Shown here in pieces: positions 47,271-63,886 of a stretch of DNA of 64,000 nt. The position numbers and the translations under genes were made by a program. The stretch comes from Planctomycetes bacterium B3_Pla (GTDB lineage: Bacteria; Planctomycetota; Phycisphaerae; Sedimentisphaerales; Anaerobacaceae), in the NCBI GenBank assembly GCA_005223045.1, contig NJBM01000003.1, positions 361,432 to 425,431 on the forward strand, read 5' to 3'. The notes under the pieces were generated by a model. That model was not told where the DNA came from and searched no databases. It worked only from the letters and a program-made list of their open reading frames with translations. The stretch's first letter is position 1. The number at the start of each line of letters is the position of its first letter.

Positions 47271-47274
47271 GAAA

Positions 47275-47349
47275 GCCGAACCAGTTGCTCCACCGTACCC
47301 AGTAAGGCGCGCGGACGCGCCTCACTGGTCCGGTGAGCACGACGTTAGC
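47275..47349 (+). other. attC-like hairpin between two accessory genes
   Basis: GCCGAAC (47275-47281) and GTTAGCA (47344-47350) flank nested inverted repeats: GCTC...GAGC (47287-47290 / 47335-47338), CACCG...CGGTG, CCAGT...ACTGG and GGCGCG...CGCGCC. Length (about 75 bases), outer boxes and long imperfect stem resemble an integron attC site, but the outer boxes match the consensus (RYYYAAC / GTTRRRY) only in part. A simple terminator is the alternative. Confidence 0.4.
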
Positions 47350-47364
47350 AAATAGGGAAGACAA

Positions 47365-48417: not shown

Positions 48418-48530
48418 TTAAGATTCAAACTGAACATAAATGCTCACAATCGAATCTAGTCGGACCTCCTACGTCGGCCGCTGATTCAGAACGTTAGCCG
48501 ATTTGTGTTGAGCTATGTCAGAATGGATAT

Positions 48531-48562
48531 AAAAAAAGCCCACGTCCCGAAGAACGCAGGCT
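48531..48562 (-). terminator. Terminator of the truncated gene
   Basis: On the minus strand AGCC-TG-CGT-TC pairs with GG-ACG-TG-GGCT around a TTCG tetraloop and is followed by seven T residues. A strong intrinsic terminator. Confidence 0.85.
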
Positions 48563-48568
48563 CTTGTG

Positions 48569-48760
48569 TTAGGCTTTCTTGACTTTCTTCTTGGTCTTCT
48601 TGCCTCTGGGCGATGTTACTTTGTCATCCTCGTCGTAGCGAACTGACCGAACCTTCGGAACAACACCCTTTGTCAGCACGCCTCGATTGTAACGGCTTAG
48701 GACAGTCTGAACGTGATCGAAGATGGCCGACTCGCTTCCGGGGAAGTTCTTTAACTTAAC
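48569..48760 (-). pseudogene. 3' part of a gene cut off at the tRNA attachment site
   Basis: A 63-codon open frame (KNFPGSESAIFDHVQTVLSR..., ending in a Lys-rich RGKKTKKKVKKA tail) runs leftward from the tRNA 3' end to a stop at 48569 and has its own terminator. It has no start codon; upstream the frame enters the tRNA and meets a stop at the anticodon. It is best read as the end of an element gene beheaded by recombination at the att site. No family was recognised. Confidence 0.6.
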
Positions 48761-48850
48761 GGAGAGGGGGGGATTCGAACCCCCGGTAGAGGTGTTTACC
48801 CCTACGACGGTTTAGCAAACCGTTGCCTTAAGCCACTCGGCCACCTCTCC
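48760..48850 (-). tRNA. tRNA-Ser(GCU)
   Basis: A 91-base class II tRNA on the minus strand. The acceptor GGAGAGG pairs with CCTCTCC plus discriminator G; D arm GCC...GGC; anticodon loop TTGCTAA gives GCU; long variable arm TAGGGGTAAACACCTCTA; T arm GGGGG-TTCGAAT-CCCCC. CCA is not encoded. Its 3' half is duplicated at 46450-46513. Confidence 0.95.
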
Positions 48851-48903
48851 AAGTGCTCTAATATAATGCACTTATGGGATTTTCAAAAAAGCATGATTCT
48901 ACC

Positions 48904-48925
48904 TGACTACAACCTTGACTACAAC
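48904..48925 (+). repeat. Direct repeats upstream of the integrase
   Basis: TGACTACAAC occurs at 48904-48913 and 48916-48925, 12 bases apart, and CACTACAACC recurs at 50516-50525. Short direct repeats near an integrase and attachment site are candidate arm-type binding sites. Confidence 0.4.
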
Positions 48926-48989
48926 TAACTTGCGATTTACAATCTTGCTATCTCGTTTGATTACATGGTTATAGTTAAGGATATCAGTC

Positions 48990-50150
48990 ATGGCAAAATC
49001 TAAATCTAAAAGAAAAACACGTTCTGATAAATTCCCGCTTACTTTACATAAGACGGGCCAGTTCTGCAAGAAAATTAAGGGCAAGCTATATTATTTCGGC
49101 ACCAATAAGCAAAAAGCTTTGCAGCGGTACCTGGAACAGGCCGCTTATCTGCATGCCGGCAAAGCTCCTACGCATAGGTCATCCCAGGACCGGCTTTCGA
49201 TAAAGATCCTATGCAACCTATACTTAGACCATCAGGAGTCAAGGGCTGAAATAGACGAGATACAATCAAGGCAGGTCTCCGATCAGATTTCACTTCTCAA
49301 GGATTTTGTGAGATTCGTTGGCCCCAACCGGCCAGTGTCGGACATTTCTACCATTGAGTTACAGAACTACCGCAAGAGGCTCATTAAGGCAAGGAAGTCA
49401 CCCAACACCATCAATAATCGCATCGCAGCATTCAAGGCGATGTACAACTGGGCTTTGGACAACGAAGTAATCGACAATGCGCCGAGATTGAAAGCAGTGA
49501 AGAAGGTGACGCCTCCGAAACAAGAAAAACCCACTTTTACAGTGTCCCAGATTCACAAGATACTTTATAATGCAAGTCCTCAAATGAAAGCGATGATATG
49601 GCTGGGTTTGAACTGTGGATTTGGTTGCACTGATTGTGGAGAACTGAAATGGAAGAACGTTGATCTGCAAAATGGAAGGATTGATTTCCCCAGAGGGAAG
49701 ACAGGTATCGGAAGAAACCTTCCGCTGTGGTCGGAAACAGTACAGGCACTTAACGAAATCCCGGTGTCAGGCGAGTTAGTGTTTTATACAAGAAAAGGGA
49801 ATCCTTGGGTGAGGACCATAAAAGGTGTGGGAAAAGACGGAAAAGAGAAATACAAGAAGACCAATAACGTTAGCAAGGAATTCTCAAAACTCATGAAGAG
49901 AACGGGCATCAAAATGGAAAAGGGTGTTGGATTCTATACTCTCAGAAGGACGGCAGCGACGTTGACAGCCAGGTCAGGTGATCCGTTTGCGGTCCAACGG
50001 CTTCTCGGCCACGCTGATCTCAAGATGGCCACAACGTATGTTCAGGACGTCTCTGAACAAACAGACCGTGCGGTCAACAATACACGAAAGCTCATAATCC
50101 AAGATGATTCTTCACCCTTGGCAGACGCCTCGATCGGGAGGGATGAGTGA
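48990..50150 (+). CDS. Tyrosine recombinase/integrase, planctomycete-type
   Basis: A 386-residue integrase: basic N-terminus, SAM-like core-binding domain (about 65-170), catalytic domain (about 180-370). Lys237 in RGKTG, Arg319 in YTLRRT, His341 in LLGHAD and nucleophile Tyr350 (TTYVQ) are in place. The first catalytic Arg is missing: the segment reads NCGFGCTDCGELKW with Gly212 where G-x-R-x-x-E normally has Arg; Tyr316 replaces the box II His. Integrases of this form are common in planctomycetes. AAGGA eight bases before the ATG supports the start, 140 bases from the tRNA. Confidence 0.88.
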   Translation: MAKSKSKRKTRSDKFPLTLHKTGQFCKKIKGKLYYFGTNKQKALQRYLEQAAYLHAGKAPTHRSSQDRLSIKILCNLYLDHQESRAEIDEIQSRQVSDQISLLKDFVRFVGPNRPVSDISTIELQNYRKRLIKARKSPNTINNRIAAFKAMYNWALDNEVIDNAPRLKAVKKVTPPKQEKPTFTVSQIHKILYNASPQMKAMIWLGLNCGFGCTDCGELKWKNVDLQNGRIDFPRGKTGIGRNLPLWSETVQALNEIPVSGELVFYTRKGNPWVRTIKGVGKDGKEKYKKTNNVSKEFSKLMKRTGIKMEKGVGFYTLRRTAATLTARSGDPFAVQRLLGHADLKMATTYVQDVSEQTDRAVNNTRKLIIQDDSSPLADASIGRDE

Positions 50151-50493
50151 CTTGGTTCGGAAACGGCCTGACTTTCTTGGATTCAAGGAATTGGTATAGA
50201 CTCGACCTCGTGATCCGGTAGTGCCCCTTTCGGGCAATCTTGCCATTGGTGTCAACAAGGTCAACGGCCTCAAGCTCACCGTTTCGGATTAGCCGGTAAA
50301 CAACACTCTTTGAGATTTTCAACTCAGCAGCGATTTCCTCCACAGTTAGCCAATCTGATGCAAAGGACCTGCGGGCGGCCTCGAGTATATCGAGGAACCG
50401 CCCTATATTGATGAACAGATCCTTGCAGACCGAGCAGTTTTTGCCTTCGGCCATCTCAGTATCATTCAGATTGTCTGATATCTCTCGTATCAA
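50092..50493 (-). CDS. Excisionase-like helix-turn-helix protein
   Basis: A 133-residue protein with a MerR/Xis-type DNA-binding domain at about 48-100: WLTVEEIAAELKISKSVVYRLIRNGELEAV. An N-terminal CSVC pair is notable. The start is probably TTG 50493, with AGGA eight bases upstream; ATG 50454 has no such site. Its 3' end overlaps the integrase 3' end by 59 bases on the opposite strand, so the transcripts are antisense to each other. Next to an integrase it most likely controls recombination direction. Confidence 0.75.
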   Translation of the reverse strand: MIREISDNLNDTEMAEGKNCSVCKDLFINIGRFLDILEAARRSFASDWLTVEEIAAELKISKSVVYRLIRNGELEAVDLVDTNGKIARKGHYRITRSSLYQFLESKKVRPFPNQVTHPSRSRRLPRVKNHLGL

Positions 50494-50581
50494 CGCTAAG
50501 TCCTGTCTATCTTCTCACTACAACCAGGCCAAAAAACACTCAGGCCTTCACCAACGTCACACGGCCAGCCCAGATGAAACT

Positions 50582-51082
50582 TTAAGTTGTTGCGGCCCCT
50601 TCAGTGGCGCTGCCTACCTTTGCCTCACTTTTTCCTTTCACGCCAGACCTGTGCGTGTTAGATGAACGCCCTGCTTCTGTTGTTTTCTTCGGCCTGCCAG
50701 GCGACTTGGGTTTTGTTGCCGCACGCGCCGGTTCTTTCGAAGCGACTTCGTTTCTTTCATTGGGCCTGGTCGTGGCTGCAATTATGAACAACTGCAGCAT
50801 TACTATCACCCCTGTGAGAGTCAGTGCTGTTAATAGGGAATAGTTCACGGTAATGTTTCGGGTGTGCTCTATCTCTGCGATATTGTTCGGCATGATAAGT
50901 AGCTGCGCATATCCTGCTATGGCTGAGGCTGAAATCAGCAGTGAGGCAACAAAGGCAGTCTTGCCGTGGAACAATCCTGTTTGTCTAACGATCTTCAAGA
51001 CAGTCAGGAATGTAATCACAAAGGCCGACGCCATCATTACTAACAACAGGATTTCGGGAAGAATTGAAATGTAATTACCCAT
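50582..51082 (-). CDS. Membrane protein with basic AT-hook-like tail
   Basis: A 166-residue protein with three membrane helices (ILLLVMMASAFVITFLTVL, AFVASLLISASAIAGYAQLL, LLTALTLTGVIVMLQLFII) and a disordered Lys/Pro/Arg-rich tail from residue 108 with SPGRPKKT, an AT-hook-like word. AAGGAG precedes the ATG. Last gene of the leftward operon; function unknown. Confidence 0.6.
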   Translation of the reverse strand: MGNYISILPEILLLVMMASAFVITFLTVLKIVRQTGLFHGKTAFVASLLISASAIAGYAQLLIMPNNIAEIEHTRNITVNYSLLTALTLTGVIVMLQLFIIAATTRPNERNEVASKEPARAATKPKSPGRPKKTTEAGRSSNTHRSGVKGKSEAKVGSATEGAATT

Positions 51083-51190
51083 TTTAGAACTCCTTATACA
51101 GTACAGTTTACGACTTCTGTTATTAATCCGGCTGGATCACAATTAATCCAAATTCAAATCGTCATGTTGTTATTATTCTCTGCGGTCATT

Positions 51191-51712
51191 TCATCGCCTT
51201 TTCAATCGCTTATTATTTGTTCGGTTCTTCCGATTGATGCGCAGGTGCCCCGAACAGACCGGGACCTTGGAGCTGATTCGAGAGGAAAACCGTTTGGGCA
51301 CCCGGGTGGAAATGTGAGCCTCTGGGATCCCGGACGATTTCTCTCGGTCATTGGGCACGCCAAATGCATCTGCGCATTGTCCGGGAGAATCATTTGCTTG
51401 AGCAGTATCATCTTTGCGAATGGTATAATCTGATAAGCGGTCCTTCGCCCCTTTGAAATGCTTGCCAATGAACGAAAAGAGCAATATCAGAAGAATGGCT
51501 ATCCCCAATGCGGCATAAGGCAGCAAAATGATTCCAAGCGAACCTTCCAAGGAACGGCTCATTCCAATAATACATAATGCTGATACGCATACCGAAAGAA
51601 CACAAGATGGAAACATATCAAGATTAAAAGCGGATCTAATGGGCTTGAATATAACCACCAGCAGTATTACAAAAATAGGAACCAAGACTATTGTTTCAAT
51701 ATTGTTTGACAT
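51191..51712 (-). CDS. Membrane protein with basic tail, unknown
   Basis: A 173-residue protein with three membrane helices (ETIVLVPIFVILLVVIF, MFPSCVLSVCVSALCIIG, GIILLPYAALGIAILLILLF) and a disordered basic tail ending NRKNRTNNKRLKRR. The layout is the same as in the next gene of the operon (three helices then basic tail), but the sequences are not obviously related. GGAAGG precedes the ATG; the upstream gene ends 36 bases away. Confidence 0.6.
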   Translation of the reverse strand: MSNNIETIVLVPIFVILLVVIFKPIRSAFNLDMFPSCVLSVCVSALCIIGMSRSLEGSLGIILLPYAALGIAILLILLFSFIGKHFKGAKDRLSDYTIRKDDTAQANDSPGQCADAFGVPNDREKSSGIPEAHISTRVPKRFSSRISSKVPVCSGHLRINRKNRTNNKRLKRR

Positions 51713-51748
51713 GACTCATCCTTCCATAATTTAGAGTGAACTTACTTG

Positions 51749-52042
51749 TTATGCTGCTCTTAGAATTGTCCCAATAATAACTCTGGCGATCGCAAATACT
51801 ACCAATGCCACAATGAGTTTTCCTCTTTCCGATAGTGGGTTTTGGGTTTTGAAAAACTGCGAAACTTTTGTAGTAACGGCATTGACAAGCGTTTTGCCGG
51901 CATTATCAAATGGGACGAGCCAGTTGACATTTCTCCACAGCACAACAAGTCTTATCTGCAAGAAGAACATTGCAATATCAAGGCCTACACAGACGAAATA
52001 CAAAAAACACATCAGTAGATAATTTAATCCTTCCAATTTCAT
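51749..52042 (-). CDS. Small two-helix membrane protein
   Basis: A 97-residue protein: LLMCFLYFVCVGLDIAMFFLQI and LIVALVVFAIARVIIGTIL are membrane helices on either side of a 35-residue polar loop. Its start is nine bases after the VWA gene stop, with AAAGGA as ribosome site, so it is co-translated with it. No family was recognised; the layout recalls YggT-like proteins. Confidence 0.6.
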   Translation of the reverse strand: MKLEGLNYLLMCFLYFVCVGLDIAMFFLQIRLVVLWRNVNWLVPFDNAGKTLVNAVTTKVSQFFKTQNPLSERGKLIVALVVFAIARVIIGTILRAA

Positions 52043-52051
52043 TGTCCTTTC

Positions 52052-52759
52052 TTAAATGGCTCGTATATGACGAGCCAGTGTTTGATATTCTTGTAGCAGC
52101 TGTTTTTGATCGCCAATGAAGCAGTATCGAATAGAACCATCTGGATTTACCGAGGCGATCTGCTTGAGAAGCTTCTCATCGACTTCTTCTGAGCTGCCAC
52201 CGATGCCGATGCAATCAATAATGACTCCTGCTTTCTTGAGTCTCGCTGCAATGTTCAGCGGTGAACCTCCCTGGTTGTGTTCACCATCAGTCAGCATGAT
52301 AATTCTGTTGAGACTGTGCCTATTTCTTACTGGCGCTGGCTTAGGGACATCGGGTTCGACAAATATCTCTGACAATACTCTTAAGAGAGAGTTGTCGTGT
52401 GATTTGAGGGGTATGCTGAAGAAACATGTCTCGGCCAATTTTAGTGCTGCGGTGAAATTCGTCCCGCCTGAACCATCGGCCCTTCTCAGAGCTTTTCGCA
52501 GGCTGTTCTCGCCTTTACCAAGGCAGACAGGTGGATGCAGAAGTTCCGCATTGCTGCCAAATCCGATGATCCCCATTCGGTCTTCCGGGTGGTGTCTGAG
52601 CTTATTCGCAATGAGCTCTTCATTTGCCGCAATGGCGCCGGCTTTTCTTGAAGGCTTCCAGTCATCATCTTCCATCGAAGGTGACAAGTCTATCAGGGTG
52701 AGCAACGTTTCCGTCGCTTTATTGGCTTGAATCCTATTTGCAAAATCCAAGTATCTCAT
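52052..52759 (-). CDS. VWA-domain protein
   Basis: A 235-residue cytoplasmic von Willebrand A domain. The metal-ion-dependent adhesion site is complete: Asp24-x-Ser26-x-Ser28 in LIDLSPSMEDDD, Thr in GGTNFTAAL and Asp in MLTDGEHNQGG. Such proteins assemble complexes through Mg2+-dependent contacts. It follows the Hsp70 gene by 66 bases in the same operon. GGGAAA precedes ATG 52759; a further in-frame start 54 bases upstream is less likely. Confidence 0.85.
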   Translation of the reverse strand: MRYLDFANRIQANKATETLLTLIDLSPSMEDDDWKPSRKAGAIAANEELIANKLRHHPEDRMGIIGFGSNAELLHPPVCLGKGENSLRKALRRADGSGGTNFTAALKLAETCFFSIPLKSHDNSLLRVLSEIFVEPDVPKPAPVRNRHSLNRIIMLTDGEHNQGGSPLNIAARLKKAGVIIDCIGIGGSSEEVDEKLLKQIASVNPDGSIRYCFIGDQKQLLQEYQTLARHIRAI

Positions 52760-52825
52760 TGTTATTTCCCTTTCAGAAAGTGGCAGATGGCATAAAAGCT
52801 GTCTGCCGCCCATATGTGATAGTAA

Positions 52826-54340
52826 TCAGGCGGCACCTACTTGTGTGGTGCCACCACTATTCGAATGCTCGTAGTCGATATTCATCTCAGCGGTTTTTCC
52901 GCTCGCACTATCACGAGCCTTTGCTGTCAGAAGACCATTGCTGTCCAGTGAGAAGGTTACCTCAATTCGTCCTATCATATCTGGTCGAGGTGGCAAATCC
53001 GTGAGGTCGAAATGCCCAAGCATAAGACATTCGTTGGCGTTCTTGCCACCTTCACCTTCCAGCACCTTGATGGTTACAGCAGTCTGATTCGGCTCGCCAA
53101 GCTTGAATAGCTTGGTCTGTACCGAAGGGATCGGTGTTTCACTGGGAAGTATCTCGCTGCATATTTCTCTGTTGTCTTGTTCCAGTGCAAGCACTCCAAT
53201 CGTATGGCTGAGGATGTCATGAACGATCAAGTCCGGTGCAGGCAAAACAACGTCTCCACAAGTGTAAGTCTTGCCTTGCCGTCTATATTCAAGGCGGCCG
53301 CCAAGAACGGCACCGAGGGCTGCCGCAGCATGGGGCTCACATCGCCGGGAGACCTTTTTGCCTGTCAAGGTCTCAAGCATCTCTGTGATGATGGGCATCA
53401 TCGAGCCCCCGCCGACAGCGTAGATTTCGTCGATCGACGACATATCCAGATTCGCATCTTTTATGACTTGTTTCGTTCTTTCCATGGTCTTCTCTGCGAT
53501 GTCCTCCACCCATGAATTGAACTGCTGTCTTGTAATGGTCATGGCAAGCTGTTTGCCTTCACAGGAGAGAACGATTTGCGATTGGGCCTGGACCGACAGG
53601 CTTATCTTCAACTGCTCGATTCTCTGTATCATCTCCTGGAAGAAGATGGGATGATCGTCCCTTGATGGCGTAAAACCATTCTTGGCGTTGAACTCATCCA
53701 GCATCTTCTCGCTGATACGGTCATTGAAATCCCTACCGCCAATATTAGGTTCACCGCCGGTGGCAACAACGTCACACACGTTGCCTCCCGAGCGTACGAT
53801 AGACACATCAAATGTTCCTCCTCCCAAATCGTACACAAGGACTATGCAGTTTTTACGCTTGTGGAGTTCGTTTCCAAGAGCGGCGGCAGTTGGCTCGTGT
53901 GGTAAAAGGATAGCCTTAATGCCAACCTTAGCTGCCGCATCTATTGTCTGCTGCTTTTGGGCGTCGGTGTAGTTCGCCGGAACCGTTATGACCGCCTCGT
54001 TTACGACCTGGTCAGTCTTTGTTTCGATGTTGTCTCTTGCGTCGTTAAGCAGGATTGCCAGAATGTCCATTGCAGTGTAAACTGTGCCGTCATCGGTGGC
54101 ATACAATACGGCGTCGGTGCCCATGCTACGTTTCCAGTTTACTACCAGCCTGGTTGGGTCGGCGAAGCCCGCGTTTAGAGCCTCTGTTCCAACGATAATA
54201 GAGCCGTCCGGCGCAAAGAAAACCGCACTTGGAGTGAACGGCTCGCCGAATTTGTTTGCGATTAGTGTTGGGTTTCCAGCCACATCGGGTGCGGCATACT
54301 TGAAACGTGAGTTTCCTGCATCAATTCCTGGTATTAACAT
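52826..54340 (-). CDS. Hsp70-family protein without C-terminal lid
   Basis: A 504-residue DnaK relative. The nucleotide-binding domain (1 to about 375) has PGIDAGNSRFKYA (phosphate 1, unusual Asn-Ser for Thr-Thr), VITVPANYTDAQKQ, VYDLGGGTFDVSIV (Asp171) and AVGGGSMMPII. A substrate-binding beta domain follows (DILSHTIGVLAL to about 490), then a short Gly/Ser tail; the helical lid is absent. Its start overlaps the GrpE-like stop by seven bases and its AAGGAG site lies inside that gene, so the two are translationally coupled. It is probably a dedicated chaperone for this locus, not the housekeeping DnaK. Confidence 0.92.
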   Translation of the reverse strand: MLIPGIDAGNSRFKYAAPDVAGNPTLIANKFGEPFTPSAVFFAPDGSIIVGTEALNAGFADPTRLVVNWKRSMGTDAVLYATDDGTVYTAMDILAILLNDARDNIETKTDQVVNEAVITVPANYTDAQKQQTIDAAAKVGIKAILLPHEPTAAALGNELHKRKNCIVLVYDLGGGTFDVSIVRSGGNVCDVVATGGEPNIGGRDFNDRISEKMLDEFNAKNGFTPSRDDHPIFFQEMIQRIEQLKISLSVQAQSQIVLSCEGKQLAMTITRQQFNSWVEDIAEKTMERTKQVIKDANLDMSSIDEIYAVGGGSMMPIITEMLETLTGKKVSRRCEPHAAAALGAVLGGRLEYRRQGKTYTCGDVVLPAPDLIVHDILSHTIGVLALEQDNREICSEILPSETPIPSVQTKLFKLGEPNQTAVTIKVLEGEGGKNANECLMLGHFDLTDLPPRPDMIGRIEVTFSLDSNGLLTAKARDSASGKTAEMNIDYEHSNSGGTTQVGAA

Positions 54341-55047
54341 TGTTCTACTCCTTCAATAGGTTTGATTGTGTTAGTTTGTGATGTCTGATGCCTAAAAAGA
54401 GCGACAGTCTCAGACCTCAATACCCTTTCCTTGCCCAATCGAAATCCGACCTGCAGAGATTCCGCTATGTGGCCATTGAGCCGACCGTCTTCAGTAGGTA
54501 TCCAGGTGATAGGCTTCATTGTTTTGGGGTTGAACTTCTTCCCAGCCTGATGCTGAATGACATGCACATCATACGTTGCCAAAAACTGTCCCATCTGACT
54601 TGAGATCGCACCAAGCAACTCTTTGTTTTGGCGTGAGTGATTCCAATGCTTGCGTGCATCCTCAATAAGGTCAAAGACCGGAAACAGTGAGCGAACAATG
54701 GGCTGAATGATGTGTTCGTCGTAATGCTGGTTACTCAGTAGGAGATTGGTCTGGCTGGCGTTCTCAAGCAGCTTGCTGTGTGAACTTAGATTACTGAGTA
54801 CCTTTTCAATAGACCCAAGCTGAAGATTCAACTGCTTTTGCTGAGTTTCCACGTTCGTTAGTTGCGAGGCCATTGGTATTAGGCTTTCCAGAACCTTCTC
54901 AGCGATTCGACTGTTTGAACGCTCCAGGAATCGCAGTAAGGCCTGGCCTAATACCATCGCAGCAGTATCAAATTGTTCGTTGCTGCTGTTGGCAGCGGGC
55001 CCGGTAGGAACCTTACTTTCATCAGTTTTGTCCTTTCGATTGAACAT
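54334..55047 (-). CDS. GrpE-like nucleotide-exchange factor
   Basis: A 237-residue protein with an N-terminal long helix (about 30-115, coiled-coil with QQKQLNLQLGSIEKVLSNL), a middle helix IIQPIVRSLFPVFDLIEDA, and a C-terminal piece VGFRLGKERVLRSETVALFR (about 200-220), which resembles the GrpE beta-domain. Direct coupling to the Hsp70 gene supports a role as its exchange factor. ATG 55047 with GAGGAAA eight bases upstream is preferred to TTG 55062. More divergent and longer than housekeeping GrpE. Confidence 0.75.
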   Translation of the reverse strand: MFNRKDKTDESKVPTGPAANSSNEQFDTAAMVLGQALLRFLERSNSRIAEKVLESLIPMASQLTNVETQQKQLNLQLGSIEKVLSNLSSHSKLLENASQTNLLLSNQHYDEHIIQPIVRSLFPVFDLIEDARKHWNHSRQNKELLGAISSQMGQFLATYDVHVIQHQAGKKFNPKTMKPITWIPTEDGRLNGHIAESLQVGFRLGKERVLRSETVALFRHQTSQTNTIKPIEGVEQC

Positions 55048-55175
55048 TACAAATTTCCTCAAAATTAAGTGTTAAAATTATTATTCACATTCACTAAACT
55101 TATCTTTTGAAAATCATCTTGTTTCCATGTGAACCTCCTTCCTGTCATGTTTGACCTTGCTATTTGTAAAATCTC

Positions 55176-55385
55176 TCAGCGCTTAGAGATAATCTTTGCC
55201 ACAGCCACAATCGTTACACAGACAAGACCGAATATGATAATCCTGAGCATCGGATCGTAGCGGTAGTAGTAGCCATCAGCCAAATCCTCGAATACTCGAT
55301 CCAGATATGGCCTGATTTTGACGAACAGGTATATTCCAAAAATCAGCAACAACGGCCCGAATATATTCTCCCAGCGAATACGCAT
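55176..55385 (-). CDS. Small two-helix membrane protein
   Basis: A 69-residue protein with helices FGPLLLIFGIYLFVKI and LRIIIFGLVCVTIVAVAKII separated by a Tyr/Asp-rich loop (DGYYYRYDP). It lies between the ATPase and the GrpE-like gene on the same strand. The 128-base gap downstream may contain a second promoter. Unknown function. Confidence 0.6.
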   Translation of the reverse strand: MRIRWENIFGPLLLIFGIYLFVKIRPYLDRVFEDLADGYYYRYDPMLRIIIFGLVCVTIVAVAKIISKR

Positions 55386-55464
55386 CTCAAAATCGCCTCA
55401 ATCTTCTATTTTTCTTTTTTCCATTTTTCGTTTTCATGGTAAAGAGGCATGGAAACTGGTTTAA

Positions 55465-57447
55465 CTATTGATCATAAAAGGAGATAGCAGGAAAACGAAT
55501 GCGATGATGTTCTGAGCGATCTATCTCCATATTTACGCGTTTTCTTATAACCTCCCTGACTTTGCGATTTGGTGTCAGAACCGAAATCAAGCCGAATCCC
55601 GCATCAAGATTCTTTCTTATATTCTCTAAAGCCCTGATACTGTCATCGGTTTCGATCTCTACCGCTTCCTCCCTTCCATCAGGCCAGGTAACTGCGAGGT
55701 CCACGAATTTTCTTTGGCCGTTTACAAGAAAACTTTTTTCGCTTTCAGTTTTACAATTTTCTGCCAGGTACCATTCCTCAGCCTTTCTACGCAGATAATT
55801 GTGCAGGCTATTGCCAAGTCTGCCTGCACTGGTATTAGTGACTACTTCAAGGAATATGTTTGCCGCTCCGCGTTTTCCGCTTTCCAGTGGAGTTTCATTT
55901 ATTAGTTTCTTGCTGAGCAAGGCCTGCTTGGCAACGGTTGCTCGTTTTGTGCTGAGGCCTGCCATCTTGTAATGGATAGTTGCCGATGGTACCTGAGGAT
56001 TATTGCGTATCTGATCCAACAAGGATTTTTCATCGGCAGTTAAGCCTGAGTTGTCTTTATTGTCTTTTTTACTGTTGGTTCCCTGAGATGTCGATTTCGT
56101 GAGCAACAATGTTGGTTTGCCTGGTTTTGGCACCATATCCAGAAGCTGCTGCACACTCTGGCGAACTTCTGCATCGGTAACATTATCCGGTATGCGAATA
56201 TTCGGGCTGTGATTCAGAAAAGGCTCCATCCATCCAAAGCCCATCTTTATTACCTGTGTGCCGATACCGAGATTGGTCTTGCACCACTGGATTTGCTGGG
56301 AAGTCAGGCCCATTGCCCTGCCAAAAGTATCGTAGTCGGCACCAGAACCAACCCTGCACATGATCTTAATGCCGCTGTTGGCAATAATAGAGTTGGATAA
56401 GTCATGGCATGTCTGTGTCCAGACAAACAGGGCAATGTACATACGGCGAATAACACTGGTCATCGTGGCAATATAAGATGGTCCTTCATTGGCAGCTTCG
56501 GCTTTCCTGGAGTATAGCCTGCTCGCCTCATCCAGGGCGACTACCACCAGATCCTTTGATGGATTTGTCACCCTGTGTGCAAACAAAATGCTCAGCAGGT
56601 ATGAGACAAAAAGATTTTGGTACTGGGTCTCCAGACCATCGAATTCCCAGGCAATGATTCTTTTGGCCAGCTCACTGACCCTGAACCCGCGTCTTATACT
56701 GAATATCTGTCTCTTGTTGACAAGTAAGGCTTGAAGTCGAATCAATATCGCATCTTTGGCAGCCTTGTTGCCATCGAATTGTTTTACTTCATCAATGAGT
56801 TCAGAAAGTATCGGCGGTTCGGTATCAGGATTAGTAAACAGCCTGAATTTTTCATATAGGTTGGTGATGCAAATTTTTAAGATGAGCTTGGCAACGGGAG
56901 GCAGGCCAAGGCTCAGGGTGATAAATTCAGCACAAATATTCGCGTAAAGAGAAGGTTCTGAGCCTTGTGGGTCAAGAAGATTTATCCTCAGATTTTCATG
57001 CCTGCAGACGATGGCTTCGTGATTGATTTTGGATGCCAACCTTTTAATGCCTCGTAATTCTCTTTTAACAAAATCGAAAATCCATAAACCGGAAGCGATA
57101 GGCAGGTACTGCAGAAGCAAAAAGACTAGAAATACAGTTTTGCCGACGCCGGTAGCACCGATGCCAAGCAAATGACTCGGGGCATACTTAGAATCATAGC
57201 GACTGACATCTCCATCATTTTTGCCTAAAACGATATCGCCATGCATCTGCTCAGGGGTATTGAACAGTGATGGATTGAGGCTTTGACGGAATTCCCTGAA
57301 ACCGATACTTGATTTCAAGCTGGCATAAACTTTGGCATCGAAACCCTTGGCGAAAAGGATCCTGAATTTATAATAGTCACTGGGCGTTATGCCCAATTTT
57401 GCGGCCCTTTTGAGAAGTTCAACCGGATTTTCTTTTGGTGCTTTCAC
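55465..57447 (-). CDS. HerA/VirD4-like ATPase with winged-helix and nuclease-like C-terminus
   Basis: A 660-residue P-loop ATPase of the FtsK/HerA/VirD4 class. Walker A is GIGATGVGKT (Lys103); Walker B is DLVVVALDEASRLY (about 297-310); WTQTCHDLS is a sensor-like segment. These proteins pump DNA in conjugation or DNA processing. From about 475 a winged-helix-like part (NNPQVPSATIHYKMAGLSTKRATVAKQAL) precedes a C-terminal alpha/beta domain (about 545-650) with FVDLAVTWPDGREEAVEIE, shaped like a PD-(D/E)XK core but with E-x-E for E-x-K. The start is GTG, 17 bases from the zinc-cluster gene. No membrane helices are obvious, unlike typical VirD4. Confidence 0.8.
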   Translation of the reverse strand: MKAPKENPVELLKRAAKLGITPSDYYKFRILFAKGFDAKVYASLKSSIGFREFRQSLNPSLFNTPEQMHGDIVLGKNDGDVSRYDSKYAPSHLLGIGATGVGKTVFLVFLLLQYLPIASGLWIFDFVKRELRGIKRLASKINHEAIVCRHENLRINLLDPQGSEPSLYANICAEFITLSLGLPPVAKLILKICITNLYEKFRLFTNPDTEPPILSELIDEVKQFDGNKAAKDAILIRLQALLVNKRQIFSIRRGFRVSELAKRIIAWEFDGLETQYQNLFVSYLLSILFAHRVTNPSKDLVVVALDEASRLYSRKAEAANEGPSYIATMTSVIRRMYIALFVWTQTCHDLSNSIIANSGIKIMCRVGSGADYDTFGRAMGLTSQQIQWCKTNLGIGTQVIKMGFGWMEPFLNHSPNIRIPDNVTDAEVRQSVQQLLDMVPKPGKPTLLLTKSTSQGTNSKKDNKDNSGLTADEKSLLDQIRNNPQVPSATIHYKMAGLSTKRATVAKQALLSKKLINETPLESGKRGAANIFLEVVTNTSAGRLGNSLHNYLRRKAEEWYLAENCKTESEKSFLVNGQRKFVDLAVTWPDGREEAVEIETDDSIRALENIRKNLDAGFGLISVLTPNRKVREVIRKRVNMEIDRSEHHRIRFPAISFYDQ

Positions 57448-57464
57448 TTTCAGGCTCTCTCTTT

Positions 57465-57917
57465 TTACTTGGTGTTGTCATCAGAGACAAACGTCGAAAA
57501 AAAGATTTTGCCAATAGCACGCAGTTTTAAGCTGCGTTTGATTTCCTCTGCACACGAGCGGCAGTAAGGTTTGTTTTGCTCATCAAAATTTGCTATCACG
57601 GTATCCTGCGGACAAGTTGAATGGCCGCATGATGAGCATAGTGAAATGCAGTTGCTGCAAACCAGACTGTCACAATAATGGCATCTTCCTCCAAGATTAT
57701 TCTTCGATGTGTGGCCACAGTCGAAGATATGGATGTTATTAATGATTATATTGTCGGTTTCGTTATTGTTGCCGATGCCGGTCTCATCAATCATCTCATC
57801 GATAATCCTGTAGCCGTTTTGGCCGGGCACTCGGCTTTGTTGACGCCGCCTGTGGATCGGATTGCCCAATAGGTTGAGCAGACTGTTTAGAAGGTTGTTG
57901 CTTTGTGTTTTTGCCAC
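57465..57917 (-). CDS. Small zinc-cluster protein
   Basis: A 150-residue protein with a C/H-rich region (about 67-122): CGH, CHYCDSLVCSNCISLCSSCGH, TCPQ and YCRSC, enough ligands for two or three zinc sites in a RING- or treble-clef-like arrangement. The start is GTG with AAGGAG six bases before it, and that site overlaps the stop of a preceding small gene. Likely an adaptor for the neighbouring ATPase; no specific family is claimed. Confidence 0.7.
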   Translation of the reverse strand: MAKTQSNNLLNSLLNLLGNPIHRRRQQSRVPGQNGYRIIDEMIDETGIGNNNETDNIIINNIHIFDCGHTSKNNLGGRCHYCDSLVCSNCISLCSSCGHSTCPQDTVIANFDEQNKPYCRSCAEEIKRSLKLRAIGKIFFSTFVSDDNTK

Positions 57918-57927
57918 TTTATGCTCC

Positions 57928-58107
57928 TTACCAGCCCCAAGGCTCGCTGAAGATACTGTTTTCGCACCACTGTTTCAGAAAAGCCAAAAACCAGTAGCAG
58001 AACCAGCATATGAATAATGAAATGAAGATAGTGGTGACCAGGAATATTGTCCTGACCGACCACCTGAGCAAGTCTATGAACATCTTGACTATTCCTCGTT
58101 TAATCAT
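57928..58107 (-). CDS. 59-residue membrane protein
   Basis: A short frame encoding a basic N-terminus and one long hydrophobic helix (TIFLVTTIFISLFICWFCYW), ending SEPWGW. Its stop codon lies within the Shine-Dalgarno site of the zinc-cluster gene (TAAGGAG), the spacing expected of an operon gene. AGGAG lies 12 bases before the ATG. Confidence 0.5.
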   Translation of the reverse strand: MIKRGIVKMFIDLLRWSVRTIFLVTTIFISLFICWFCYWFLAFLKQWCENSIFSEPWGW

Positions 58108-58192
58108 TCTCAGTCTTCTCTCCTATTTGGCTTCTACAAGACTCTTATGAAGCGAAACATTATGAACTCCATTCATTCGAAGATGTCACCTA

Positions 58193-58630
58193 CTATGACA
58201 TCATGCTATTCTGTACCCCATCCAATGCGGGGCAGGCCTTTTTGCTATGCTCAGCATGCTCACGTTTAGCGGGATCGATAACTTCCAACATTTGTTTGGC
58301 AATCCTGGCTCCGATGTGATTGATTTTCGAGCGGGCTGCTAAACGTAGATGCTGCACCATTCTTCGGCGGAGCCGATTTGGACAGTGACCGGCGTTGTCG
58401 ACAACGCAGAGATGCTTGATTTCGCTGTGAAACTTCGACCACTGCTTGTCAGTGCACGTGAAGTACAGTCGGTTAGTTGCAGAGCCTTTCCGGTAAGATT
58501 TGAGCTTGTGCTCCAGCGCCTGTCGTGTGATCTGATGTAGGCTCTCTGCGTTTTTTGCCGCTACCGTAAACTCGAACCGTGTTGCTGGGGTCTGTCTCTT
58601 CCGTCTTTTAGGCTTTCTTTGTCTTCGCAT
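58193..58630 (-). CDS. Small basic protein, unknown
   Basis: A 145-residue, very Lys/Arg-rich protein beginning RRQRKPKRRKRQTPATRFEF. The composition suggests nucleic-acid binding. The middle contains YFTCTDKQWSKFHSEIKHLC. No family was recognised and the start lacks a well-placed Shine-Dalgarno site, but the frame is long for this A/T-rich region and follows operon direction. Confidence 0.5.
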   Translation of the reverse strand: MRRQRKPKRRKRQTPATRFEFTVAAKNAESLHQITRQALEHKLKSYRKGSATNRLYFTCTDKQWSKFHSEIKHLCVVDNAGHCPNRLRRRMVQHLRLAARSKINHIGARIAKQMLEVIDPAKREHAEHSKKACPALDGVQNSMMS

Positions 58631-58739
58631 ACTGGTTTGTTCTTTCCTGTTAAGCTATGGTCCATATGGGAACCGTGTGCTCAACTGTCGGTTTACACTT
58701 GACATTCTGCGGCGGGCCTCGAGAATGGTAGGAGGACAG

Positions 58740-58797
58740 CCGCAATTCCAACGCGGTAGATCCGGGGCCGGTGCTTTTTTGCAGGAGCTGCCGGCCC
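58740..58797 (+). other. GC-rich double hairpin in an A/T-rich gap
   Basis: CCGC (58740-58743) pairs with GCGG (58753-58756); then GGGCCGG-TGC (58765-58774) pairs with GCA and CCGGCCC (58781-58783, 58791-58797) around six T residues. The surrounding element is A/T-rich. It could be a structured RNA or a terminator; the rest of 58631-58803 holds no supported gene. Confidence 0.35.
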
Positions 58798-58803
58798 TCG
58801 TTC

Positions 58804-59370
58804 CTATGTATCGTTGCTTTTTTTCGAGTTGTCGGGATTATCTAATGTATTTGATATAGTCTCCCCTTCCTCTGTTAAACGAATTCGTTTTACATATTTG
58901 CCGTGCCGGATTAACCGAATCAGACCGCGATTCTCCAGCCGCTTTAGGGCCATTGTGACTCTCGGCTGCGCGTAGCGAAACTTGCGCTCATGCTCTCGTC
59001 GTTGCTTTGGCCCGAAGCACGGATCAACATAGAAATGACAATACAGTCTTTCCAGACCATAGAATCTTGCAACAATCTCCCCACGTTCAATTCCGTCGCC
59101 GGTGTTCTGCAAAATCCAGCACGCCAGTTTAGATAGGCGATCTGTGTTAACTTTTGGGACTCTCAAATTGTCTTTTGAAGCCATATCTGGACCTCGAACG
59201 ATGGTTTGGACCGTTGATTCGCCGGTGCCGACGACTTGCTGCCAGCGGACACCTTCTGCCGACGGCGTCGTCACTCCCGTTTTAGCGCATGCTTTTGCGG
59301 TGACGGGTTCACATTCGCTTTCAGTATGCTCCGAGAACATTTTGTCAATGTCAGTAAGCATTGGATTCAT
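58804..59370 (-). CDS. Winged-helix DNA-binding protein
   Basis: A 188-residue protein. Residues about 75-175 form a winged helix: LSKLACWILQNTGDGIERGEIVARFYG, then RVTMALKRLENRGLIRLIRHGKYVKRIRLTEEG, the recognition helix and wing of MarR/ArsR-like domains. The N-terminal 70 residues are disordered. GAGGAC before the ATG supports the start. Probably a regulator of the element. Confidence 0.65.
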   Translation of the reverse strand: MNPMLTDIDKMFSEHTESECEPVTAKACAKTGVTTPSAEGVRWQQVVGTGESTVQTIVRGPDMASKDNLRVPKVNTDRLSKLACWILQNTGDGIERGEIVARFYGLERLYCHFYVDPCFGPKQRREHERKFRYAQPRVTMALKRLENRGLIRLIRHGKYVKRIRLTEEGETISNTLDNPDNSKKSNDT

Positions 59371-59518
59371 TTTGTCCTCTTGTGCTTTCTCAGTATCATC
59401 CTATTTCTACCTAACACTCCGGCTCAATTATTACTGTCAATATGTCTCAAAACCTGAGTTCTTTTTAACCGACCGCAATGACACCCCAGTGAACTATGCA
59501 TGATTTTCAAATGATATT

Positions 59519-60133
59519 TTACATTTTGACGACCAAGTACCTATAAGTCGGATTCATAACGTATGCACATCCGTGTGTGAATTTGCCTGGCTCGTAATTG
59601 GGCACGGTTCGAATGTAGGGATTCTCACGTCCTCTTCCACCAAGAGTTCTTCTCAACAACCGAATCGTCTGAGCAAAAGTGCCGGGTTCGCATATATTGT
59701 TTGGATGGCCGTAAATTCCCGGAGCGGTTTCATATGAAATAGGAGTGCCAGGATTTTGTAGCATCCATACCAGGATTTTCATTTTTATGGAACCGATCCC
59801 AGCAAGAGATCCTTGTTGCAAATCAGATTTGTTCTCGGGAGAATACTTTAGTTTGAGAGTGCAGATATTAGGATTTAGGATAATGTGGTAGTTGTTTTCG
59901 TCGAACTCACTTGAGCCTTGGATGGTCGTGGGTTTACTATTAGTAGTCATGGTGCCTTGAGGTTGTGGGATATTTGATCCGACTATACCAGATGGGCTCT
60001 TGTAACTTATTTCTGCGTGACATTGTTTTAATGACTCAAGTTTGTGAATCATATTTTCATGGCGTACATTCTCCTCATCCACCATCTGCTGGATTAGATT
60101 TGAGAAGTTAGTTGTCGCCGTTGAATTATGCAT
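59519..60133 (-). CDS. Protein with OmpR-type winged-helix C-terminus
   Basis: A 204-residue protein. The C-terminal 100 residues (LKLKYSPENKSDLQQGSLAGIGSIKMKILVWMLQ ... FAQTIRLLRRTLGGRGRENPYIRTVPNYEPGKF) have the order of an OmpR/PhoB effector domain: helix, recognition helix with IRLLRRTLG, and a hairpin wing ending in a near-GYGY (here MNPTYRYLV) strand. There is no receiver domain. A 10-base word at 60141-60150 in its leader recurs at 60506. Confidence 0.55.
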   Translation of the reverse strand: MHNSTATTNFSNLIQQMVDEENVRHENMIHKLESLKQCHAEISYKSPSGIVGSNIPQPQGTMTTNSKPTTIQGSSEFDENNYHIILNPNICTLKLKYSPENKSDLQQGSLAGIGSIKMKILVWMLQNPGTPISYETAPGIYGHPNNICEPGTFAQTIRLLRRTLGGRGRENPYIRTVPNYEPGKFTHGCAYVMNPTYRYLVVKM

Positions 60134-60140
60134 TATGATC

Positions 60141-60150
60141 GTGTTACCAT
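60141..60150. promoter_or_regulatory. Candidate operator word shared by divergent genes
   Basis: GTGTTACCAT lies just before the minus-strand gene start at 60133 and again at 60506-60515 at the head of the plus-strand gene. Placement on both sides of a divergent intergenic region suggests a shared regulator site. Confidence 0.3.
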
Positions 60151-60170
60151 GGAATTGTTAATGTCCATTA

Positions 60171-60341
60171 TTAAACATATCCATTGTTAGCAGACGGTTC
60201 GGCCGTCACCCTGCTGTTTTTGAGTCCTGGATTCTCATCGAATAAATCGTTGAATGGTGTTACATATTCTGAAATAACATCATCGATCATCTTCAATCTG
60301 TCTTTCTGTGAACTGGATTTTGTTTTTGTCTGTTCCTGCAT
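60171..60341 (-). CDS. Possible 56-residue protein
   Basis: A short frame (QEQTKTKSSSQKDRLKMIDD ... VTPFNDLFDENPGLK) with charged, helical, protein-like composition, opening with ATG after GAAGAA. It is upstream of the winged-helix gene on the same strand. No family; could be a small antitoxin-like or regulatory protein, or chance. Confidence 0.35.
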   Translation of the reverse strand: MQEQTKTKSSSQKDRLKMIDDVISEYVTPFNDLFDENPGLKNSRVTAEPSANNGYV

Positions 60342-60505
60342 TGTTCTTCAACAAGAAGTTCATTCAGTACTTCAAACAGCTAACCTAAGAAACAATACCA
60401 CAGTCTCTACATAGTAAAATTGATTTGAAACTTTATCTTTCTGGCTGGCTGTAAAGTTTTCGTAAATGGTCACGCTCTTGGTTTTGGTGAGCGTATGACT
60501 CCGAT

Positions 60506-61156: not shown

Positions 61157-61163
61157 AAAGAGT

Positions 61164-62039
61164 CTATCTCTCGAAAAGGAAATATTCGTCTGCAAAAGAT
61201 GTTTTGAGGCCAAGGCCTTTGTCGAACCATTTGGTGAAACAATATTCGCGGAACTGTCCTCCGCAAAACGCATTTAACTTTGAGAGTTGTTGATCTATTT
61301 TGTTCTTATCACCCTCAGTATTGTCGCTCATGACATCATCAAAAACATCTTTCATGACATCTTCGACAGGTGCAGGAGTTCCAAGTCTTTCTATTAGGTA
61401 TTTAAGGAGCTTTACAGCCCGCGGAGTTAACCGCCTATTGCCGAACTTCTTTGACACATGAGATCTTTCATTTAGATCGATCCAAAAAAGGTAATCATCC
61501 TTGTGCTCTTCATATTTACTGATACTATCGACTGTCCAGCTTTCGCCATTTGTCCAAATCTTGTATTGTGGCTTAGGTGCTGCGGATACTACCGCGTCGT
61601 CTCCATCTGCTTTAACTGTTAGTATTTCCATGCAAAGAGCGGAAATGTGACGCACAAGAGCAGCGGTCAATCGTGGCTTGGAGCCATACTGGGTCGCTGA
61701 TTGGCGGATCAGTCTCTTCAGTTCAGTAGAGGATAGTCTTTCCCTATTGATATTATGCAATGTTGCAGAGAGAGTTGCCAAGGTTATGGGGGTGACAAAA
61801 TCGAGCGTGCCCCCTGCGGCAAAAGACACTTCGGTAATAATATCATGCGCCGTATTTGGTGCCGGCCAAACTCCGGGGGACTGGCTATGGAACAATTGCA
61901 TCCGAGACGCAAATGTCTCCCAAAATACGTCAAATAGCGGAGCTTCGTCAGGATAATGCTCTTCGATAAATGCTCTGGCGATAATCCTGGTATTATTCAG
62001 ACATGATTTGTCGTCTTCATGCATTCTAAATGTTCTCAT
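61164..62039 (-). CDS. Winged-helix protein next to the M48 protease
   Basis: A 291-residue protein. The N-terminal 200 residues are helical and unrecognised; residues about 200-291 resemble an OmpR-type effector domain: NRRLTPRAVKLLKYLIERLGTPAPVEDVMKDVF, then NKIDQQLSKLNAF and a C-terminal hairpin ending YFLFER. It starts 26 bases after the M48 protease stop, so the two are probably one operon. The combination suggests a protease/regulator pair, which is an inference. Confidence 0.55.
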   Translation of the reverse strand: MRTFRMHEDDKSCLNNTRIIARAFIEEHYPDEAPLFDVFWETFASRMQLFHSQSPGVWPAPNTAHDIITEVSFAAGGTLDFVTPITLATLSATLHNINRERLSSTELKRLIRQSATQYGSKPRLTAALVRHISALCMEILTVKADGDDAVVSAAPKPQYKIWTNGESWTVDSISKYEEHKDDYLFWIDLNERSHVSKKFGNRRLTPRAVKLLKYLIERLGTPAPVEDVMKDVFDDVMSDNTEGDKNKIDQQLSKLNAFCGGQFREYCFTKWFDKGLGLKTSFADEYFLFER

Positions 62040-62065: not shown

Positions 62066-63886
62066 CTACTGGCGAGTCGCATTTAGGTCTATTGCCTCCA
62101 GTCTTTCAGGTAGACAAGGATGCACATAGCCAAGCAAGCCGTCGCCGAAAAAGAAACGTATCGAGACTAACATCTTATACCATCTGTCCTTCATACCGCC
62201 AGTAAATATTCTTAGTATACTAAGAGAGCGTGTCGCTTTTCGTCGGGCCGGAGTCGCCTGCAAATATGAGAGCTGAGCAGTCGATATTTTTGTCAATGCG
62301 TGCTTTAAGGGCAATGGATCTTTCGTCAAGCTTAAAGCAAATTGATCCGCATCTATTTCCCGCTTTGACCAATTCACACACACGGTAAGATAATGATTTG
62401 GGAAAAGCAGTGAGGACGAGAGAGTCTTTAGTGCCCAGATATTCCATAATCCTTGCCTGATGTGTCCAAGTTCATGTGCAATAACAGATTTCAATTCTTC
62501 TAATTCGAGTAATTCGATTGCTCCCCGGCTTATTTCTATTACGGCTTGGCTGCTTAGTGCCAGCCAGCGTAATTGGATAGTAACGCTATTGTTTGCCGTT
62601 AAGACTATTTCGGGTGTTTTGATTCCCTTTGTTGGGCATACTTCTTTTATGAAAGTGTTGATGAAGAACAGTTTGGAGTCTTTGCACTTAGACCAGTTGA
62701 GACGCGTGAGTTGAACACGAATCATTAGAAAGATGCTCTGTGTCAACCTTCGTATATATGTTCCCAAAAGCGTGAGAAATGGAAGGCAGACAGCGACGGT
62801 AAGTACTTGCCCAATAATTTGGCCAGATGCTTCCCCAAATAGCACTTTACCGAAGGCAAACATCCATGACCAAAGATGTGCATTCTTCTCAAATAGAAGA
62901 GTCCGGCCTGTAACTGCATAGCTCAAGCCATCAAAACAAAACACTCCCGCAAGCAGATTAGTCACTCCTCCGAAAATACAATGGAACACTACCGTGACGT
63001 GAAACAGCAAAGGCATCTCCCATTTCCAGGCCATCGGGAGGTAAGGCACAAATGGCCCCCGCAAGGATTCGTTTTTGCCAACCTCAAGGCGCCATATCTC
63101 GTGACTTTTGACAAAAAGCCTTTTGAACGGCATAATTACAAAGAATAAGATCATCACAACTATTATGAGCAGAGATCCGGAACAATAGGTGTACAGATAA
63201 ATATTTCTTGAGCTTGCTTGCTCTTCTTTGGTCTCATGATTTGAGGAGGATGTATATTCAACAGATTCTTGTATTCTCCTTGCGGCATCTTCTTCCAAGG
63301 ATTTGGCTGTTGCTGGCGTGATTTCTCTAAAGCGAGCTTGCTTGAATGACTGTGACACCGATAGATTTCGGTTCTCTGGCTTATACAGCTCAAGGTTTTG
63401 AGTAAATTCCAAAGCGAACAGGACAGGTATTGTTGCCAATGTGGATACCATCAGGAATGTCCATCTGGCCATGCTGCCAACTATCCATAGCCGCCAGTGC
63501 CAATGTGGATTATTACGTTGCATGCAGTCTACAACGATCATGGAGAAGAAAGGAAAGCACAGCAGGGATGAGATTACAATCCCCCATGCTCCTAACAAGA
63601 CTTTGCCAATGTAAACAAGTGAACCACAAAGAAGCAGTTCTGTAGACAATCTGGACCTTTTAGTATGCAACGTGCCTTCGGCTCGTGTTAATTGCAGGGT
63701 ATTGTGAGTGACTCTTGCCCTGTCCCAGAAACTGTTTTCGAACCGAGTCAGTCTCAATGAAAGCCTGCTATCCTTCCACCAAATGGTCAGCATCACAAGG
63801 ATTGAGCATGTACACAACTTCATGAGATTGAAAGGTGTGTATTCGTGGACAATATTACGCATTGCGTCAATGGTGTCTGACGTCAA
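62066..63886 (-). CDS. Membrane M48-family metalloprotease
   Basis: A 606-residue protein with about eight membrane helices and a zinc-protease site: HELGH in KSVIAHELGHIRQG (about 471-475) and a third ligand Glu in KREIDADQFAL (about 505-512), the M48 (HtpX/Ste24/BlaR-like) arrangement. A long extracytoplasmic or cytoplasmic loop lies at about 180-245. The start is TTG 63886 with GAGGG nine bases upstream; ATG 63862 is an alternative. It precedes a winged-helix gene on the same strand. Confidence 0.8.
   Translation of the reverse strand: MTSDTIDAMRNIVHEYTPFNLMKLCTCSILVMLTIWWKDSRLSLRLTRFENSFWDRARVTHNTLQLTRAEGTLHTKRSRLSTELLLCGSLVYIGKVLLGAWGIVISSLLCFPFFSMIVVDCMQRNNPHWHWRLWIVGSMARWTFLMVSTLATIPVLFALEFTQNLELYKPENRNLSVSQSFKQARFREITPATAKSLEEDAARRIQESVEYTSSSNHETKEEQASSRNIYLYTYCSGSLLIIVVMILFFVIMPFKRLFVKSHEIWRLEVGKNESLRGPFVPYLPMAWKWEMPLLFHVTVVFHCIFGGVTNLLAGVFCFDGLSYAVTGRTLLFEKNAHLWSWMFAFGKVLFGEASGQIIGQVLTVAVCLPFLTLLGTYIRRLTQSIFLMIRVQLTRLNWSKCKDSKLFFINTFIKEVCPTKGIKTPEIVLTANNSVTIQLRWLALSSQAVIEISRGAIELLELEELKSVIAHELGHIRQGLWNIWALKTLSSSLLFPNHYLTVCVNWSKREIDADQFALSLTKDPLPLKHALTKISTAQLSYLQATPARRKATRSLSILRIFTGGMKDRWYKMLVSIRFFFGDGLLGYVHPCLPERLEAIDLNATRQ

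Follow-up and report, generated by a model that had tools for sequence, protein, structure and literature searches.

The 64,000-nucleotide stretch analyzed here (the window; contig NJBM01000003.1 of Planctomycetes bacterium B3_Pla) carries a genuine ten-gene operon, conserved as the core of mobile elements. It encodes a HerA/VirB4/VirD4-type ATPase with a nuclease-fold domain (ATPase1), a lidless Hsp70, a GrpE-like factor, a VWA protein and small transmembrane (TM) proteins, and lies beside an integrase. The combination of motor, nuclease fold, small membrane proteins and recombinase points to an element that moves its own DNA. Action of the operon on DNA is likely, and transfer is plausible. 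The full reading, that the operon is the conserved core of Planctomycetota integrative elements and probably a membrane-docked DNA pump for their transfer between cells, with Hsp70-GrpE-VWA as its switch, was held to have about an even chance of being right. DNA movement between Planctomycetota cells is poorly known, and conjugation searches based on a relaxase plus a type IV secretion system (T4SS) would miss these elements.

The operon in the window

Ten open reading frames (ORFs) run on the minus strand from 58107 down to 50582, separated by -7 (the overlap of the GrpE-like and Hsp70 genes) up to 113 bases. The gene order and seven-base overlap given in the original prediction were confirmed from the ORFs. 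TM counts were taken from a simple hydropathy window. The operon and the features at its integrase end are as follows.

57928..58107, minus: tmE, 59 amino acids, single TM, first operon gene (ORF, hydropathy; orthologues at the same position in relatives)
57465..57917, minus: zn, 150 amino acids, cysteine-rich zinc protein (position kept in relatives; no Pfam match above cut-off)
55465..57447, minus: ATPase1, 660 amino acids, HerA/VirB4/VirD4-type motor (profile and fold matches)
55468..55830, minus: nuclease-fold domain within ATPase1 (PD-(D/E)XK fold; standalone gene in many relatives)
55176..55385, minus: tmD, 69 amino acids, two TM (ORF, hydropathy, relatives)
54334..55062, minus: GrpE-like nucleotide exchange factor, 242 amino acids (Pfam)
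52826..54340, minus: lidless Hsp70, 504 amino acids (Pfam, DnaK alignment)
52052..52813, minus: VWA protein, 253 amino acids, complete metal ion-dependent adhesion site (MIDAS; Pfam, motif alignment)
51749..52042, minus: tmC, 97 amino acids, two TM (ORF, hydropathy, relatives)
51191..51712, minus: tmB, 173 amino acids, three TM, charged tail (ORF, hydropathy, relatives)
50582..51082, minus: tmA, 166 amino acids, three TM (ORF, hydropathy); probably a duplicate of tmB, because it was scored by the hidden Markov model (HMM) of that adjacent gene at 9e-8
50092..50493, minus: excisionase-like HTH_17 protein (HTH_17 8.4e-14)
48990..50150, plus: tyrosine integrase (Phage_integrase 2.2e-20)
48759..48851, minus: tRNA-Ser(GCT), probable attachment site (tRNA call)

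Residues ~58-430 of ATPase1 form the motor, which by fold was closer to HerA/VirB4 than to FtsK, and residues ~540-660 form the C-terminal PD-(D/E)XK-fold domain; the region between them reads as a winged helix. Profile matches were HerA_C (0.0029) and FtsK (0.0032) in Pfam, both below cut-offs, CedD in NCBIfam (2.6e-6, far below cut-off), and mad8 (1.4e-10) and HerA (1e-3) in PADLOC. No N-terminal TM was detected by hydropathy. The core fold of the nuclease domain is present, with AF1548, EndoMS and BamHI as best matches; NurA was not among the matches listed, which does not exclude a relation. D583, E597 and E599 (D44, E58 and E60 in the domain alignment) were invariant across 17 rows and K73 nearly so, with E-x-E at the usual E-x-K position. 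The domain is fused to ATPase1 in the window and encoded separately in many relatives.

The Hsp70 (PF00012, 2.9e-92) has both the nucleotide-binding domain and the beta substrate domain: its alignment with DnaK covers residues 5-488 and extends to the end of the second of these (38-507 in the 4rtf chain). The protein stops there, and the helical lid is therefore absent, as had been proposed. With no lid and 304 bits against an NCBIfam DnaK cut-off of 822.55, it falls short of a DnaK orthologue. Its ORF measured 498-505 amino acids in 21 of 25 listed sequences, window included (two were cut at contig ends and two called longer). The GrpE-like protein matched Pfam GrpE at 1.1e-12 (48.4 bits, cut-off 25.8) and the VWA protein VWA_2 at 1.1e-15; the MIDAS of the latter (D42-x-S44-x-S46, T118, D176) was invariant across 11 aligned sequences.

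The base composition of the element region is foreign: GC was 45.3% over 48852-64000 vs 54.1% over 1-46449, where 7.5-kb intervals span 50.2-56.0%. Because the window reaches the end of a 425-kb contig, it lacks the far side of the element. A 64-bp, 98% identical copy of the tRNA-Ser 3' part at 46450-46513 and the intact tRNA gene bracket a neighbouring 2.2-kb segment (49.0% GC, DUF3800 gene at 47365-48417); this segment, 46450-48757, is a small second insertion at tRNA-Ser. Two contigs of the same genome, C30 and C33, were considered as the right end of the element and rejected, as they carry the tRNA 5' half with integrase remnants. C33 has a shortened, 95% identical integrase and C30 a 160-bp scrap, each preceded by a shared 240-bp leading repeat (L082:1-480, L083 end). 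They read as relics of related left ends.

Recurrence in Planctomycetota and the exchangeable cassette

Of 397 genomes in the class, 35 matched the GrpE-like alignment at E <= 1e-3 and 13 at E <= 1e-30; the weaker matches (22 of the 35 genomes), many of them probably ordinary GrpE, were left aside except G358 and G348 (genomes and loci are cited by working handles). The ATPase alignment matched 27 places, in 25 genomes, at E <= 1e-80 and 36 genomes at 1e-10 (both of 397); across the phylum it matched 7 of 392 at 1e-30. Matches at 1e-30 to 1e-10, mostly a second ATPase and including G594, were not counted as pump loci. In total 36 related Planctomycetota loci were gathered (three in G464 and three in G635), several of them cut by contig ends, and their neighbourhoods were read with HMMs built from the loci. 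The recurring order was small TM protein, zinc protein, HerA/VirB4-type ATPase, PD-(D/E)XK-fold nuclease, two-TM protein, control cassette and small TM proteins, with up to four small membrane protein families recurring with the module. Because the same order was found again in distant genomes, it is beyond chance.

The pump ATPase was present in 31 of the 36 loci. Hsp70 and VWA occurred together in 23 (GrpE above threshold in 22, that of G550 having passed one scan only); in G620 and L012, additional to these, the contig ends inside Hsp70. ATPase1 lay on the same contig in 18 of the 23, as the original prediction of a conserved Hsp70, VWA and ATPase set implied; those lacking it were G507, G635a and G635b (contig ends first), G447 and G348. 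Since most later-read loci were found by the ATPase alone, the link between the ATPase and the trio is independent of the GrpE search. In G379 the trio lies upstream of tmE. A truncated relic in G362 (L139:1964-3414), left out of the 36 loci, has a shortened ATPase behind tmE and zinc genes, then unrelated chromosomal genes, and is a decayed copy. One 418-amino-acid database protein, P0037, joins ATPase pieces to the C-terminal half of VWA, a deletion or assembly join in one such operon.

Travel with integrases, which the original prediction proposed to check, was borne out. Of the 29 loci offering more than 1.5 kb of room, 27 had a recombinase within 4 kb downstream, 23 of tyrosine type and 4 of serine type (G379, G453, G635a, G743). 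The two exceptions were G590, with 1.6 kb available, and G647, where that side showed an excisionase-like gene but no integrase. Among ATPase1-bearing loci alone the count was 22 of 24. From the density of PF00589 (188 matches in ~68 Mb, 13 carrier genomes), one-sided adjacency by chance is expected about once in a hundred. Of the 27 loci with a recombinase, 14 had a tRNA gene no more than 1.7 kb from it (window, L013, G297, G537, G635a, G635b, G127, G447, G091, G384, G358, G438, G420, G453). Direct target repeats at both ends were found in G297 only, where the tRNA-Glu gene at 78966-79041 and a 22-bp repeat of its 3' end at 22178 delimit a 56.8-kb element with the operon at its integrase end. 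No convincing attachment repeats were found in L013, G537, G635a, G635b, G127, G447, G091, G384, G358, G438, G420 and G453, where most contigs are short and matches in three were of chance length (13-15 bp). The G297 element also carries a radical-SAM protein and an ABC transporter pair (L087:4329-7825), perhaps peptide-maturation cargo.

The slot between tmD and the last membrane genes holds Hsp70-GrpE-VWA in most loci. In G091, G420 and G438 it is filled by adjacent VWA, PP2C and protein kinase genes, and in G571 the VWA gene of this type was seen before the contig ends. In G590, G647 and G743 it holds an FHA-domain protein with a 950-amino-acid Tubulin_2 protein (identified by Pfam on the proteins of G590, and by HMM in G647 and G743). 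Two of the three cassette types thus hold a MIDAS-type or TerY-like VWA protein. Pfam showed no VWA in the FHA protein, which on reading may nonetheless hold a VWA-like part. Hsp70 and GrpE were not found on the contigs of the three kinase-type and three tubulin-type loci, which have the same pump. The proposal of a chaperone-gated DNA machine is accordingly upheld for the machine in large part and not for the chaperone as its general gate, because VWA/PP2C/kinase or FHA/tubulin-like genes occupy the same slot. As separate observations, the Tubulin_2 protein adjoins the FHA protein in this slot at L123:2852-8398 (PF13809 6e-18) and L124:7331-11462, and a RuvB-like AAA protein follows the pair in L123.

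In a tree of 31 ATPases (G453 on a long branch, G091 and G127 partial), well supported branches forced the kinase loci to three separate places and the tubulin loci to three, counts that do not separate gain from loss. For the kinase and tubulin types, 500 of 500 shuffles of the cassette labels scored as low as the real labels, so that no excess clustering is seen. This agrees with exchange, and equally means that the tree shows no sign of cassette clades. By this gene tree the control set appears to have been swapped several times on one pump. Between the window and G522, Hsp70 was 74.7% identical and the ATPase 30.7%; between the window and L012 the values were 75.3% (150 residues) and 59.6%. 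Because these identities disagree between relatives, pump and switch appear to evolve apart, and the window operon looks like a mosaic.

Proposed DNA transfer and the competing explanations

Actinomycete integrative and conjugative elements (ICEs) encode an integrase, an excisionase, a single DNA-pumping ATPase (TraB, FtsK-type) and small membrane Spd proteins, with no known VirB proteins. The present elements resemble them in integrase, excisionase-like gene, pump ATPase and small membrane proteins, and differ in a motor nearer HerA/VirB4, with a nuclease-fold domain and no N-terminal TM, and in the switch cassette alongside. ICEth1 of Thermus thermophilus, the closest precedent, is tRNA-integrated with direct repeats, encodes the hexameric membrane FtsK-HerA ATPase TdtA in an operon with a nuclease gene, and donates DNA without relaxase or T4SS homologues (transjugation; PMC5365140). 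The combination of a HerA-type ATPase and a nuclease in a tRNA-integrated element is shared, as judged from the published description of TdtA; by this analogy the pump would export DNA. ICEth1 is 14.9 kb vs 56.8 kb for the G297 element, its partners are NurA and a type IIG restriction enzyme where a PD-(D/E)XK-fold domain occurs here, and its accessible account mentions no Hsp70, GrpE, VWA, kinase or tubulin genes, which the present family has. The Ced system of Sulfolobales (CedB, CedD) likewise combines two HerA-type ATPases with membrane proteins and imports chromosomal DNA (PMC11868833); integrase, nuclease domain and switch cassette, present here, are not mentioned for Ced in the accessible account.

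On the transfer reading, the small TM proteins would anchor a ring of ATPase1 to the inner membrane, and the nuclease domain, or the separate nuclease, would cut or nick DNA in the stead of a relaxase. An upstream second HerA-type ATPase may act jointly with it, by analogy with the pairs of related ATPases in T4SS and Ced. Hsp70 and GrpE would load VWA onto the pump, or strip it off, in an ATP-driven cycle, and in relatives a kinase/phosphatase pair or a tubulin-like and FHA protein would do this job. The pairing of a signalling or scaffold protein with a nucleoside triphosphate (NTP)- or phosphorylation-driven partner in the cassettes fits an assembly switch. More tentatively, the loci may represent a relaxase-free conjugation family, whose HerA/VirB4-type pump, bearing a nuclease of its own, would export element DNA and be triggered by an interchangeable chaperone, kinase/phosphatase or tubulin/FHA switch, at least two of the three VWA-based. 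If the pump transfers DNA, the loci would form a conjugation family of their own, equipped with a dedicated lidless Hsp70. The occurrence of chaperone, kinase and tubulin cassettes with a single pump offers a natural experiment on how NTP-driven switches, hitherto described in predicted conflict systems, control a DNA motor.

A standard relaxase cluster close to the ATPase, which would have refuted the original prediction, did not emerge from the searches made: PF03432 relaxases were found in none of the 13 carrier genomes (draft, incomplete assemblies), TrwC relaxases (PF08751) in three, and neither family on the element contigs. No relaxase, pilus or capsid family was found in the 26 of ~50 predicted G297-element genes scanned by Pfam, many of which had no match of any kind. 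A plasmid reading was rejected: ATPase1 had just two weak Streptomyces matches (24% and 21% identity). Among the open-licence papers listed in literature searches, none was recognised as covering this set of genes together.

Several observations weigh against a transfer pump. No channel, pilin or origin of transfer (oriT) was recognised, the relaxase search covered two families, and the Pfam scan of the G297 element a part of its genes. That element has two more tyrosine recombinases inside and may therefore be composite. G447 and G436 have a divergent HerA-like pump at the pump position, and G453 (a ThiF-type gene in the cassette position) and G673 (integrase directly after the nuclease) have none of the three cassettes beside the pump. 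In G348, tmD-GrpE-Hsp70-VWA and an integrase (L141:7967-10373) have no HerA-type pump in 29 kb upstream, just an unrelated AAA gene on the opposite strand. The second ATPase was absent in 5 of the 18 loci with room (G127, G348, G379, G453, window); it scored 25.2 bits against the TraG P-loop, just below the cut-off of 25.8, so that a T4SS-like ATPase is still conceivable.

The chief rival is a defence module beside an integrase, in which invading DNA would be degraded by the ATPase and the nuclease, with the cassette as sensor and threshold; it takes this place because predicted conflict systems contain these components too (PMC7159879, PMC11090510). TerY-P triads of VWA, PP2C and kinase act in or beside defence (PMC11090510), and in GAP1-N2 and related NTP-dependent conflict systems HSP70-GrpE, tubulin, vWA and kinase/PP2C alternate beside one core (Kaur et al. 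2020, PMC7159879); HerA with SIR2 or DUF4297 partners forms anti-phage complexes in the PDB. The HerA complexes and TerY-P triads also count against transfer, as does the G348 trio, which fits a self-standing cassette; that trio and the mad8 match of ATPase1 speak for defence. The GAP1-N2 core is a GTPase, and no GTPase family was found among the ten operon proteins; "integrase" is unmentioned in the main text on those systems, whereas a recombinase adjoins the module here, and the TerY-P-like triad of G091, G420 and G438 sits within the pump-integrase block, in the slot held elsewhere by Hsp70-GrpE-VWA. PADLOC matched ATPase1 alone among nine operon proteins (tmE not included) and the gene at 61164-62039, with no complete system. 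The module is found with different integrases (serine type in four of its 27 recombinase-bearing loci), which fits backbone better than cargo, and its recurring small membrane families also stand against defence. This explanation was considered possible but unlikely.

A maintenance or segregation machine, with the pump moving or resolving DNA inside the cell, the nuclease trimming and transfer by other means, appears improbable. FtsK-type ATPases segregate DNA, and the G436 and G743 contigs carry ParB and Cdc6/Orc1-like genes, but such matches were seen on these alone (ParB also G277) vs a pump in 31 of 36 loci, and the several TM proteins and membrane peptidase suggest envelope work. The presence of Hsp70, GrpE and M48 peptidase genes would suit an envelope stress or protein quality-control operon, mobile but unconnected to DNA transfer; with the same pump recurring on contigs without detected Hsp70 or GrpE, and a DNA motor with nuclease fold as the recurring part, this is quite improbable. 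That ATPase1 is the genome-packaging motor of a membrane-containing provirus is scarcely credible: in viral contigs there were 58 pattern matches for the ATPase alignment and 39 for the GrpE alignment, none confirmed, ATPase1 had no match in phage records, and no capsid family was found in the operon or the scanned G297-element genes.

The second ATPase and other upstream genes

Of the 18 loci with at least 5 kb viewable, 11 (G297, G358, G384, G420, G490, G537, G571, G585, G647, G673, G743) encode the second HerA-type ATPase (ATPase2, Pfam DUF87) farther upstream on their contig, at distances of 2.7 to 37 kb; L013 has a partial piece and G480 a weak match. The search of the window's genome returned the ATPase1 cross-match only, and the copy in G127 is 0.67 Mb distant. 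Distant matches occurred on 40 plasmid records, none covering 80% of ATPase2. A partner gene of ~190-240 amino acids stands beside it in five contigs (G490, G537, G436, G647, G743). Two further genes lie upstream of the operon in the window.

61164..62039, minus: c7 family gene (HMM from loci)
62066..63886, minus: M48-type membrane peptidase (relatives in G490, G537, G436, G635, L012)

Both recur upstream in L012, G490, G537 and G436, the last two of which also have a sigma-like gene. The c7 relatives in G537 and G436 look, on reading, like zinc anti-sigma factors; the sigma label is likewise a reading, and Pfam gave no family for the G436 protein. Together these genes suggest regulated expression, and the peptidase and regulator-like genes probably time the operon. 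Near the second ATPase a four-gene set was also seen, encoding a ubiquitin-like protein, a 340-amino-acid protein (zinc-cluster C-terminus in G537), a JAB-type protease and a ThiF-type E1 (L065:8730-11433, L070:5489-8190 and G537 contig C20:46556-49288, L068). A Cdc6/Orc1-like AAA protein occurs on mobile-element contigs at L070:10995-12179 and in G743 (L170), with ParB nearby.

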